Positions 27,785 through 38,400 of a DNA stretch of 64,000 nucleotides are shown here, in pieces. The notes beneath the pieces were generated by a model that worked only from the letters and a program-made list of their open reading frames with translations, was not told the DNA's origin and did no database searches. How positions within the stretch are numbered: position 1 is the stretch's first letter; each line of letters starts with the position of its first letter. The position numbers and the translations under genes were made by a program. This stretch comes from Erythrobacter sp. Lineage in GTDB: Bacteria; Pseudomonadota; Alphaproteobacteria; Sphingomonadales; Sphingomonadaceae. The DNA is taken from the NCBI GenBank assembly GCA_024642335.1, contig JAHEBH010000003.1:7688-71687 (forward strand), read 5' to 3'.

Positions 27785-28359
27785 CGGGCAAGCTCCCCAT
27801 GGTCACGCAATGCTCCAAGTACCGCGAGCAGGGGCATGCCCAGAACGGTGAAATGCCCGCCTTCAATCTTGTCGAACAATTGCACGCCCAACGCCTCTAT
27901 CCGGAAGACACCCACACAATAGCCCACTTCGGGCCATTCCGCATCGAGATAGGCCTCGATGAACTGCTCCGATAGTTCGCGGACATGCAATTGCGCCACT
28001 TCCGTATGACTCCAGACAACCTCGCCACCGCGCGCAAGGGCGGCTGCCGAATGGAGGTGTATTTCCTTCCCGGAAAAGAAGCGCAAATGTTCGGCCGCAT
28101 TGTCCCGGTCGCTCGGCTTGTCGAAACGCCGGCCATCGACAACCACCAGCGAATCGCTGCCCAGAACCAGCCGGTCCTCCGCCGGAATCGCCAGAGCTTT
28201 TGCCTTTGCCAGCGCGAGCGCGATCTCCGACGCTGGCGCAGCTCCCAGCGATTCTTCAATCGACCGCTCATCGACATCGGCGCTCAGCGCCTCGAATTCT
28301 ACACCGGCATCGGCGAGCATGGCCTTGCGAGAGGTGGATTTGGACGCGAGCACGATCAT
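27781..28359 (-). CDS. maf: Maf-family nucleotide pyrophosphatase
   Basis: [80 protein letters not shown]. Confidence 0.93.
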
Positions 28360-29201
28360 ATCGGCTTGGGGCCTGTTTGCGGCGGGTGATCGCGCGCGGC
28401 ACGTTCCTGGTGCAGCTTGATCACCGCAGCAGCCGTTTCCTCGATCGATCGGCGCGTCACATCGATCACCGCCCAGCCATTATCGGCAAACATGCGGCGG
28501 GCGAAGGCCACTTCCTTTTCGACGCGTTCCTCATCGACATAGGATGTCTCCGCCTTCTCGTTCAGCGACAACAGGCGGTTCCGGCGGATCTGGATCAGGC
28601 GTTTGGGCGCGGTGGTGAGGCCTACCACCATCGGATGGCGCAGTCCGAACAGCGATGACGGCGGCGGACTTTCGATCACCAGCGGAATATTGGCGACCTT
28701 GAACCCGCGATTGGCGAGATAGATGCTGGTTGGCGTCTTCGAGGTCCGGGATACGCCGGCAAGCAGGATATCCGCCTCTTCCCAGTTTTCCCAGCCGATC
28801 CCGTCATCGTGCGCGATGGTGAACTGGATGGCATCGACACGGTTGAAATAGGCCTCGTCCATGACGTGCCGGGCGCCGGGGCGCTCATGCGCGGCCTGGC
28901 CCAGCCTGTCCTCCAGCGCATGGGTCACGGAATCCAGCGCGGCGACATGCGGCAGGCCCAGCGCCCGGCAGCGCTCCTCCAGTCTGGCGCGCGTCTCCGG
29001 ATTGGCGAGGGTGAAGAGCACAAGTCCCGGATTGGCCTTGAACTCTTCGAAAATCCTGTCGAGATGCTGGCGTGAACGGACCATCGGCCAGAAATGGCGC
29101 GTGACATCGGGATCGTCGAACTGGGCGAGCGCCGCCTTGGCGATCATCTCGAGCGTTTCGCCGGTCGAATCCGATAGAAGGTGAAGGTGCAAACGGGCCA
29201 T
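28356..29201 (-). CDS. Pyruvate, phosphate dikinase regulatory protein (PPSR, DUF299; RP001-type origin-adjacent gene)
   Basis: [82 protein letters not shown] at 29201. Confidence 0.95.
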
Positions 29202-29502
29202 GTGGACAAACCCACGCATAAACCACGGGAGGGAACGGCGGACAAGCATGGGATGCAATTCCACCCCCACTACCGGCCGATTCAGCCGGAGCTTTCTGGA
29301 CAGGCTGGCAATACTTTCGACAGGCTGGGGATAATGGGGAGATGTTCCGCTTGACGACGCGAATGCTCGGATTCGCAAGTGCCGGAACCCCTGTTCATTG
29401 CGGGAGAAATCGGGCAAGGGCGCGCAATCCCCGAAATCCACAGGACCAACAGAGTCCTACATCCTATTATATATAAAAATATTTTATTGTTTGGACCCTT
29501 CG
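29202..29502. other. Candidate chromosomal replication origin (oriC/Cori-equivalent)
   Basis: Intergenic between PPSR/RP001-type gene and hemE; DnaA-box-like TGTGGACAA (29201), TGGGGATAA (29326), AAATCCACA (29434); GACAGGCTGG direct repeats 20 bp apart; 24-nt A/T-only run at 29465-29488; outward gene orientation on both sides. Confidence 0.75.
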
Positions 29503-30519
29503 ATGCCCGGACCTCTCCTTGATACATTGCGCGGTAAAGTGGCCGAAAGGCGCCCGGTCTGGCTCATGCGCCAGGCAGGGCGATACCTTCCCGAATACCG
29601 GGCCTTGCGGGCAGAGAAAGGCGGCTTCCTCGAACTGGTCTACGACAGCGAGGCGGCTGCCGAGATCACGCTCCAACCGATCCGCCGCTTCGGTTTCGAC
29701 GGGGCGATCCTCTTTTCCGATATCCTTATCGTGCCGCATGCACTGGGTCAGGACCTGCAATTCCTGGCTGGTGAGGGCCCGCATCTTTCACCCCGGCTGG
29801 TCGATGTGGCACTGGATACCTTGGAAGCAGCGCCACAGTACTTCGATCCCGTTTATGAGACCGTGCGCCTGACGCGCGCGCAATTGGGCCCTGAGGTGAC
29901 CATGCTGGGCTTTGCAGGCTCACCCTGGACCGTGGCGACCTATATGGTGGCGGGAGAGGGCAGCAAGGACCACCATGTGGCGCGTGCGATGGCCTATCGC
30001 GATCCGGCAGCTTTCGGTGCAATCATCGATGCCATTGTCGAAAGCTCGATAACCTATCTTTCCGGCCAGATCGCCGCGGGCGCAGAGGCGGTGCAATTGT
30101 TCGATAGCTGGGCAGGCAGCCTTTCACCCCGGCAATTCGAGCGCTGGGTGGTGGAGCCGACCACGCGCATTGTGGACGCGGTGCGCAAATTGCACCCCGA
30201 AACGCCGATTATCGGATTTCCCAAGGGTGCGGGCGGCAAATTGCCCGCCTATGCGCGCGAAACGGGCGTGGATGCGGTGGGAATCGATGAAACGGTCGAT
30301 CCGCGCTGGATTCACCGTGAATTGCCGTCCGGAATGCCCGTGCAGGGCAATCTCGACCCGCTATTGCTGATTTCGGGCGGTGAGGAACTCGATGCAGCGG
30401 CGCGTGAAGTGCTTGCCGCCTTCGAGGGCCGTCCGCATGTCTTCAACCTTGGCCACGGAATCGACAAGTCCACGCCCATCGCCCATGTCGAGCGCCTGCT
30501 GGATGTGGTGCGCGGGTAG
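29503..30519 (+). CDS. hemE: Uroporphyrinogen decarboxylase
   Basis: RRPVWLMRQAGRYLPEYRALRAEKGGFLELVYDSEAAAEITLQPIRRFGFDGAILFSDILIVPHALG; start ATG at 29503. Confidence 0.97.
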   Translation: MPGPLLDTLRGKVAERRPVWLMRQAGRYLPEYRALRAEKGGFLELVYDSEAAAEITLQPIRRFGFDGAILFSDILIVPHALGQDLQFLAGEGPHLSPRLVDVALDTLEAAPQYFDPVYETVRLTRAQLGPEVTMLGFAGSPWTVATYMVAGEGSKDHHVARAMAYRDPAAFGAIIDAIVESSITYLSGQIAAGAEAVQLFDSWAGSLSPRQFERWVVEPTTRIVDAVRKLHPETPIIGFPKGAGGKLPAYARETGVDAVGIDETVDPRWIHRELPSGMPVQGNLDPLLLISGGEELDAAAREVLAAFEGRPHVFNLGHGIDKSTPIAHVERLLDVVRG

Positions 30520-34101: not shown

Positions 34102-34117
34102 CGTTTCACGTGGAACA
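34102..34117. promoter_or_regulatory. Candidate parS site 1 (mnmE-mnmG gap)
   Basis: CGTTTCACGTGGAACA; begins directly after the mnmE stop codon. Confidence 0.85.
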
Positions 34118-36039: not shown

Positions 36040-36662
36040 TCGGTAATGAAGATGAAGCGCGGGCCTATTGTACCCGGATCTGCGATGAAGGGGCGATGGC
36101 GCGGCTCGAACGCTTCATTCCGTTGCTCGTCGCGGAGAACGAGCGGCAGAACCTGATTTCCACCAACAGCCTCAATTTCGTATGGCAGCGCCATATTGCG
36201 GACAGCGTTCAACTCTTGTCACATGTTCCACGTGAAACATCACCCTGGCTCGATCTGGGAAGCGGAGCGGGGATGCCGGGGCTGGTGCTGGCGATCGCAA
36301 GGCCCGATCTGACCTTCCATCTCGTCGAATCGCGGAAGCGTCGTGTGGCCTGGCTTGAGCAGGTAAAGGCGCATTTCGGCCTGGAAAATTGCCATATTCA
36401 TGGCGCACGACTGGAAAATGTGGAAACCATGCCTGTGCGCGTAATCTGCGCGCGTGCCTTCGCTCCGCTTGGTAAACTCCTCAGCTTATCCGCGCGCTTT
36501 TCCACACAGGATACGACTTGGCTGTTGCCCAAAGGGCGTTCGGCAGGTCAAGAATTGTCTGAACAACCCGAATCGGTGCGCAAAATGTTCCACGTGGAAC
36601 ACTCACAGACCGATCCGGAAGCAGGAATCGTCAAAGGCACAGGGAGCCCTCCAGTCCAATGA
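36036..36662 (+). CDS. rsmG: 16S rRNA (guanine(527)-N(7))-methyltransferase RsmG
   Basis: [80 protein letters not shown]. Confidence 0.96.
36224..36239. promoter_or_regulatory. Candidate parS site 2 (inside rsmG)
   Basis: TGTTCCACGTGAAACA. Confidence 0.88.
36586..36601. promoter_or_regulatory. Candidate parS site 3 (3' end of rsmG, upstream of parA)
   Basis: TGTTCCACGTGGAACA, perfect 16-bp palindrome. Confidence 0.9.
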
Positions 36663-37435
36663 TTTGCATCGCCATAGCCAACCAGAAGGGCGGTGTGGGC
36701 AAGACCACCACCGCGATCAACATCGCAACGGCTATGGCTGCAACGGGGTGGAGGACGTTGCTGATCGACCTCGATCCGCAGGGCAATGCCTCGACCGGGA
36801 TCGGTCTCGATGCGGCTCACCGCGATATGTCGAGTTACGATGTGCTGGTTGACCAGATTCCCCTCGATGATTGCATCGTCTCCTCGAAAATCCCCGGCCT
36901 CGACCTGTTGCCCGCCACCGTCGATCTCAGCGGGGCGGAGGTGGAGCTTGTGGGTGTGGAAGATCGCACAAACCGTTTGCGCGATGCCTTGGCCAACCAC
37001 CGCGGCCACGATGTCTGCTTTATCGACTGTCCGCCCTCTCTCGGCTTGCTGACACTCAACGCGCTGTGCGCAGCCGATACGCTTCTGGTCCCGTTGCAGT
37101 GCGAGTTCTTTGCATTGGAGGGATTGAGCCAGCTTTTGCAGACGGTCGAGCAGGTGCAGCAGCGTTTCAACGCAGATCTGGGCATTGTCGGCATCGTTCT
37201 GACCATGTTCGACCGCCGTAACCGCCTGACCGACCAGGTGGCCGACGATGTACGTGAATGCTTGGGCAAGCTTGTCTTTGAGTCCGTAATCCCGCGCAAT
37301 GTGCGCCTGTCCGAGGCACCGAGCCATGGTTTGCCGGCGCTGGTGTACGATCATGCCTGCTCGGGAAGTCGTGCCTATATGGCGCTGGCGCGCGAATTGA
37401 TCGGGCGCCTGCCGCAGGAGAAGGTAGCAGCATGA
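36659..37435 (+). CDS. parA: Chromosome partitioning ATPase ParA
   Basis: CIAIANQKGGVGKTTTAINIATAMAATGWRTLLIDLDPQGNASTGIG; FIDCPPSLGLLTLNAL; VPLQCEFFALEGLSQLL. Confidence 0.97.
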   Translation: MICIAIANQKGGVGKTTTAINIATAMAATGWRTLLIDLDPQGNASTGIGLDAAHRDMSSYDVLVDQIPLDDCIVSSKIPGLDLLPATVDLSGAEVELVGVEDRTNRLRDALANHRGHDVCFIDCPPSLGLLTLNALCAADTLLVPLQCEFFALEGLSQLLQTVEQVQQRFNADLGIVGIVLTMFDRRNRLTDQVADDVRECLGKLVFESVIPRNVRLSEAPSHGLPALVYDHACSGSRAYMALARELIGRLPQEKVAA

Positions 37436-38400
37436 GCACTCAGGAAACCCCGGAAAAACCAGCACAGCGCCGCAAACTGGGCAGGGGGCTGGGTGCGCTG
37501 ATGGGTGAAACCCGCCGTGAAGAGCCTTTGGCGCTATCTACCTCAGGGCGCTTGCACGGCACGGAACATGTTATTTCCCCTTCAGCGAGCGAAACACGCT
37601 CCGAAGGACTGGCGCATCTACCGGTGGCTGCGATAGAGCCCCATCCAGACCAGCCCCGCCGCCATTTTGCAGAGGACGCTCTGGAGGAGCTGGCCGCTTC
37701 CATCGCATCGCGCGGCGTGATCCAGCCTGTGGTGGTGCGTCCCCTGGGTAACGGGCGTTACCAGCTGGTTGCCGGCGAGCGCCGCTGGCGCGCGGCCCAA
37801 AGGGCGCAACTCCATGAAATACCGGCACTAATTCGCGAACTCGGCGATCGTGACGTCATGGCACTGGCGCTGATTGAGAACATCCAGCGCGAAGATCTGA
37901 ACCCGGTGGAGGAAGCCCGCGCTTACCAGCGTCTGGCCGATCTGGAGGAAATGACGCAGGCGGAAATCGCCCGGCTGGTCGAAAAGTCGCGCAGCCACGT
38001 CGCCAATCTGCAGCGCCTGCTGACTCTACCGGACAGCGTGCTCGGCCACCTGGAAACCGGCAAGCTCGATATGGGCCATGCCCGTGCGCTGGTAGGCCGC
38101 GAAAATGCCGCTGAACTGGCCGAACAGGCGATTGCGAAAGGGCTTTCGGTGCGCGAGGTCGAAAAGCTGGCGCGTTCCCTCGACGGCGGCAGGGCGAAGC
38201 AGCGCAAGGCACGCGAACCGCGCGATCTGGCGCAGGATGCCGACATTGCCGCTGTCGAAAACCACCTGGAGGAATTTCTCGGCCTTCCGGTCAAGATCGC
38301 CGCCGATGCAGACCCGCGTTCGGGCGCGGTCACGATCAAATACCGCACGCTCGACCAGCTGGACCTGATCTGTCAGCGCCTGACGGGCGGGGGAATCTGA
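37432..38400 (+). CDS. parB: Chromosome partitioning protein ParB
   Basis: KLGRGLGALMGE; IEPHPDQPRRHFAEDALEELAASIASRGVIQPVVVRPLGNGRYQLVAGERRWRAAQRA; MALALIENIQREDLNPVEEARAYQRL. Confidence 0.97.
   Translation: MSTQETPEKPAQRRKLGRGLGALMGETRREEPLALSTSGRLHGTEHVISPSASETRSEGLAHLPVAAIEPHPDQPRRHFAEDALEELAASIASRGVIQPVVVRPLGNGRYQLVAGERRWRAAQRAQLHEIPALIRELGDRDVMALALIENIQREDLNPVEEARAYQRLADLEEMTQAEIARLVEKSRSHVANLQRLLTLPDSVLGHLETGKLDMGHARALVGRENAAELAEQAIAKGLSVREVEKLARSLDGGRAKQRKAREPRDLAQDADIAAVENHLEEFLGLPVKIAADADPRSGAVTIKYRTLDQLDLICQRLTGGGI

Follow-up and report, generated by a model that had tools for sequence, protein, structure and literature searches.

A well-supported hemE-type replication origin with lineage-specific fine structure in an Erythrobacteraceae bacterium

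Where does replication of the chromosome start in a bacterium whose genome is available as a draft of 2.66 Mb in 105 contigs? The question is raised by a 64-kb stretch of contig C35 (the window) from a bacterium whose closest named relatives, as judged by the PPSR protein, are Alteraurantiacibacter species, of the Erythrobacteraceae. The initial annotation placed a candidate origin in a divergent intergenic region of about 300 bp between PPSR and hemE. That region exists and measures exactly 301 bp (29202-29502), bounded on the left by the PPSR gene (28356-29201, reverse strand; PF03618, E=8e-93; NF003742), which encodes a kinase/pyrophosphorylase of the DUF299/COG1806 type and is the orthologue of Rickettsia RP001, and on the right by hemE (29503-30519, forward strand; TIGR01464, E=3e-117). 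HMM matches also identified MnmG (TIGR00136) and ParA- and ParB-type families among the flanking genes, the remaining ones being named from their translations alone. Divergence of hemE from PPSR was found in all 30 alphaproteobacterial loci read across the class, a non-random sample made up of the best-scoring PPSR matches. In Sphingomonadaceae, oriC has been predicted beside hemE, with conserved boxes and a DUE (PMC4741004, PMC4059872), and an origin on this side of hemE follows the pattern of Caulobacter and Rickettsia (PMC1914354). Taken with the comparative data presented below, the sequence makes it very probable that this member of the Erythrobacteraceae has its one chromosomal oriC at 29202-29502.

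The DnaA-like sites of the gap and the conserved blocks around them all read on the forward strand. Both one-mismatch DnaA boxes that had been claimed, TGTGGACAA at 29201-29209 (box 1, which shares one base with the PPSR ATG) and TGGGGATAA at 29326-29334, are present, as is the 7/9 match AAATCCACA at 29434-29442; no perfect box was found in the gap. A weak DnaA-like site, TGGACAGG (29297-29304), is seen in many congeners, not in all. The A/T-only run at 29465-29488 had been given its right place and its length of 24 nt (TATTATATATAAAAATATTTTATT), but the sequence written out for it had 23 letters. This run is the only A/T run of at least 18 nt within the window and, with an A/T-rich stretch at the same place in congeners, a candidate unwinding element; inspection by eye of the DNA beside it gave no clear match to DnaA-trio motifs. 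The two one-mismatch boxes at the 301-bp gap compare with about 0.02 expected; over the 64 kb, six such boxes were observed versus 4.8 +/- 2.1 in shuffles, which is no window-wide enrichment, and 2.9% of the contig's 301-bp windows equal the weighted DnaA box score of the gap. Box counts in this window are thus not significant and were set aside as a line of evidence for an origin. By the bacterium's own sequence the boxes are weak evidence, and it is their conservation in relatives that carries the case.

The gap keeps a length of 298-314 bp in 30 congener loci, whose alignment has an overall identity of 0.64, with the best short blocks at 0.93-1.0 and the remainder drifting; third codon positions of PPSR have an identity of 0.60 (10 loci). 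In 78 named Sphingomonadaceae loci, the gaps (25.6 kb in total) contain 134 one-mismatch DnaA boxes and the flanks (487 kb) contain 62, which makes the gaps 41 times richer in boxes, and the corresponding densities in 27 other alphaproteobacterial loci are 5.0 versus 0.13 per kb. Among the conserved parts are the TGTGGA of box 1, invariant in 30 of 30 congeners, the central block GACAGGCTGGGGATAATGGGGAGA (29319-29342), composed of the TGGGGATAA box and a GGGGA motif, and the right box block AATCCCCGAAATCCACAGGACCAACA (29426-29451), which adjoins the A/T-rich run and has a mean identity of 0.93 at 29438-29447. In Sphingobium and relatives (L084, L096) two DnaA boxes arranged as a palindrome, TCCACAGCCTGTGGATAACGGGG / TCCACAGCCTGTGGA, make up the central block; judging from the sequence, this pair looks decayed in the lineage studied here.

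The most conserved part of the gap, 29217-29230, had been missed by the initial annotation. It is a nearly invariant 14-mer, CATAAACCACGGGA, with an identity of 1.0 at 29219-29228 among the 30 congeners and with no other exact copy in its own genome. Of 401 genomes from the order, 108 contain the 14-mer, none of them more than once (its position being confirmed for part of the 108), with reversed-pattern controls near zero, and it is restricted to part of the Sphingomonadaceae. If the second-last base may be either G or C, the element sits in the gap in 58 of the 78 named Sphingomonadaceae loci, and TAAACCACGGGA is absent from the 27 other alphaproteobacterial gaps. The element is part of a left-edge block with the layout TGTGGA-N11/12-TAAACCACGG(G/C)A-N10-GACAAG, whose spacing is rigid across Erythrobacteraceae and Novosphingobium: measured from start to start, TGTGGA precedes TAAACC by 17-18 nt in all 58 loci, and GACAAG follows TAAACC by 22 nt in 55 of the 58. 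The last motif, GGACAAG at 29240-29246, is a probable degenerate DnaA site that aligns with the GATAAG DnaA box of a Sphingobium locus (L091). Sphingobium carries TGTGGATAAAGCAAGGGA ... GTGGATAAG in the same register, which suggests that the element and GACAAG derive from, or remain, DnaA sites in a phased array. We also considered TAAACCACGGGA as coding or leader sequence of PPSR, for which an in-frame upstream ATG is present, but the distance to the PPSR start ranges over 15-80 nt in all three frames (58 loci) and 29219-29228 is without any substitution among the 30 congeners, so that this reading was rejected.

A cluster of GANTC, the site of the cell-cycle methylase CcrM, had likewise escaped the initial annotation of the gap. 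There are three sites, GATTC at 29279-29283, GATTC at 29370-29374, in a column that is conserved as GANTCG in the congener alignment and reads GA[G/T]TCG in 75 of 78 family loci, and GAGTC at 29452-29456, which adjoins the A/T-rich run and is seen in the sequence and the congener alignment. The 78 Sphingomonadaceae gaps hold 407 GANTC sites versus 110 +/- 11 in shuffles, a difference whose z-score is overstated since related sequences are not independent; the density is 15.9 per kb in gaps versus 1.7 in flanks (ninefold), and 77 of the 78 gaps have at least two sites. Outside the family the excess is modest (91 versus 57 +/- 8 expected, 27 gaps). YGAKTCG forms, a GcrA-type motif, occur in 55 of the 78 loci, and the bacterium's own genome encodes one N6/N4 methylase, with N6_N4_Mtase and RAMA domains, as expected of CcrM. 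Windows that reach the gap's values in both box and GANTC counts were very few, 2 of 59,100 in G017 and 10 of 51,890 in G036, two closed congeners (sampled, overlapping windows), which is compatible with the gap itself, the positions of these windows not being listed. GANTC is generally richer in intergenic DNA and occurs in Caulobacter origins (PMC3973325), so that the cluster is not new in kind; its density here is striking. In 46 of the 78 loci TTGAC precedes GANTCG, mostly by 18, 19 or 24 nt (also 29), the pair in the present gap spanning 29351-29374. A -10 element shared by these 46 loci was not found, and the pair is possibly a promoter within oriC that reads towards hemE.

Chromosome-scale signals were sampled in closed relatives, the genome under study being a draft. 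The GC-skew switch that the initial annotation expected at this place was seen in G036 and G017, where the change of sign falls in the sampling bin that holds the hemE locus and the origin position of best skew contrast covers that locus as well; in G009 the reversal is within about 150-300 kb of it, the position of best contrast being shifted to one side by about 260-310 kb, with nearly equal contrast. In all three genomes the KOPS-like GGGNAGGG changes polarity at the hemE locus or no more than about 150-200 kb from it, the optimum of G009 being within about 150 kb, and the opposite switch is found roughly half a chromosome further on. The minimum of the skew spreads over about 100 kb or more, and fine-scale sampling narrowed it no further. 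In the window itself, a motif search located a parS-like site with one mismatch (34102-34117) and two perfect parS sites (36224-36239 and 36586-36601), 0.15 matches with up to two mismatches being expected in the whole window. They are followed by a parA-type partition gene (36659-37435, forward; ParA-type families, below equivalog cut-offs) and parB (37432-38400, forward; TIGR00180, E=1e-56, above cut-off), so that the three sites and parAB lie about 4.6-9 kb, and the perfect sites and parAB 6.7-9 kb, downstream of the gap. Two of the parS sites fall within the rsmG frame and one just upstream of mnmG. The locus thus combines divergent hemE and PPSR, a conserved cluster of DnaA boxes, an A/T-rich element beside a box, a GC-skew switch in the closed G036 and G017 (approximately in G009) and parABS within about 10 kb. 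Conservation, the skew bracket in relatives and the parS/parAB linkage identify it as an alphaproteobacterial oriC of the hemE type, a new and well-supported case of a kind already known, with a fine structure specific to the lineage.

Many bacteria have oriC beside dnaA, and an origin there or elsewhere on the chromosome would be in keeping with the breadth of the skew minimum, with a genome in 105 contigs and with a former DoriC assignment for S. alaskensis, in which the origin was not beside hemE (PMC4741004). Yet the distance between dnaA and the hemE locus is 433 kb in G017, 388 kb in G036, 517 kb in G009 and 418 kb in G002, and dnaA is off the skew switch in the three of them with skew data, so that a dnaA-side origin is not favoured; moreover, Sphingomonadales are reported not to conserve dnaA in the neighbourhood of ori (PMC8116508). 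We regard an origin outside the gap as extremely improbable. As to dnaA in the genome under study, the true gene is on C105, and two more weak DnaA ATPase domain matches were seen at C99:1576-1869 and C101:1344-1637 (frames of 447 and 430 aa).

It could also be argued that the gap is a mere shared promoter of hemE and PPSR, at which DnaA and CcrM/GcrA regulate transcription while replication starts elsewhere. The genes do diverge from it, the A/T run could be the hemE leader, with a GGA before the ATG that may be the hemE ribosome site, the 46 loci have TTGAC ahead of GANTCG with one of a few fixed spacings, and DnaA and methylated GANTC sites regulate Caulobacter promoters (PMC4468827, PMC3667746). 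A promoter alone would leave aside that the skew switch of closed relatives falls here, that parS is linked and that boxes are 41 times as dense as in the flanks; besides, the distance from the left array is maintained towards hemE (277-327 nt, median 284) and not towards PPSR (15-80 nt). This reading is therefore very unlikely, and a promoter role side by side with oriC is possible. The placement of oriC between PPSR and hemE is supported by position, box conservation, the A/T-rich element, congener skew, parS/parAB and the distant dnaA.

Sequence, conservation, spacing and linkage, together with skew and KOPS polarity in relatives, allow a mechanism to be proposed for this oriC. DnaA would assemble cooperatively on an ordered array of fixed spacing, with a left arm (29201-29246) made of box 1, the TAAACCACGGGA element and GGACAAG, a centre (29319-29342) made of TGGGGATAA and GGGGA, and a right arm (29426-29444), from which it would spread into the A/T-rich run (29465-29488) and open it. 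Helicase would then be loaded and two forks would depart in opposite directions, through PPSR and through hemE, and ParB on parS, 7 kb away, would move the new origins. The GANTC sites would be hemimethylated after initiation until CcrM acts, and could in this way mark new origins and report on, or gate, refiring. A bolder proposal joins two statements: that in Erythrobacteraceae and Novosphingobium TAAACCACGG(G/C)A functions as a lineage-specific component of oriC, either as a DnaA site of a specialised kind or as the sequence recognised by an initiator cofactor of a new kind, and that the dense, conserved GANTC cluster makes initiation dependent on CcrM methylation, in place of the CtrA control of Caulobacter Cori. 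We hold this combination to be doubtful.

The analysis narrows the origin of a bacterium with a draft genome down to a gap of 301 bp and defines an architecture for the origins of Erythrobacteraceae and Novosphingobium whose blocks can be mutated one at a time. Testable leads on the control of initiation in alphaproteobacteria other than Caulobacter are provided by the rigid element, present once per genome, and by the enrichment in GANTC.

The nearest known system is Cori of Caulobacter crescentus, which lies between the same flanking genes, hemE and CC0001 (COG1806) (PMC1914354, PMC4468827, PMC3973325), is of similar size (404 bp versus 301 bp) and likewise has an A/T-rich element, imperfect DnaA boxes, GANTC sites and parS within 8 kb. 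The present gap differs from it in having the TAAACCACGGGA element and in being without CtrA or IHF consensus: no CtrA site (TTAA-N7-TTAA, strict consensus) was found in 29100-29600, nor was the strict IHF consensus, in a search that weak sites would escape, and a Caulobacter-like CtrA control is therefore not supported. Closer at hand, the oriC predicted for Sphingopyxis granuli TFA, like those of further Sphingomonadaceae in DoriC, lies beside hemE and has putative conserved DnaA boxes and a DUE, as here (PMC4741004), whereas the gap of S. granuli NBRC 100800 (L095) is without TAAACCACGGGA. The predicted oriC of Novosphingobium sp. PP1Y has three DnaA boxes beside hemE (PMC4059872); as placed by Ori-Finder it is also close to a dnaA gene, whereas dnaA is remote in the congeners studied here, and the Novosphingobium gaps that we read retain GATAAACCACGGGA.
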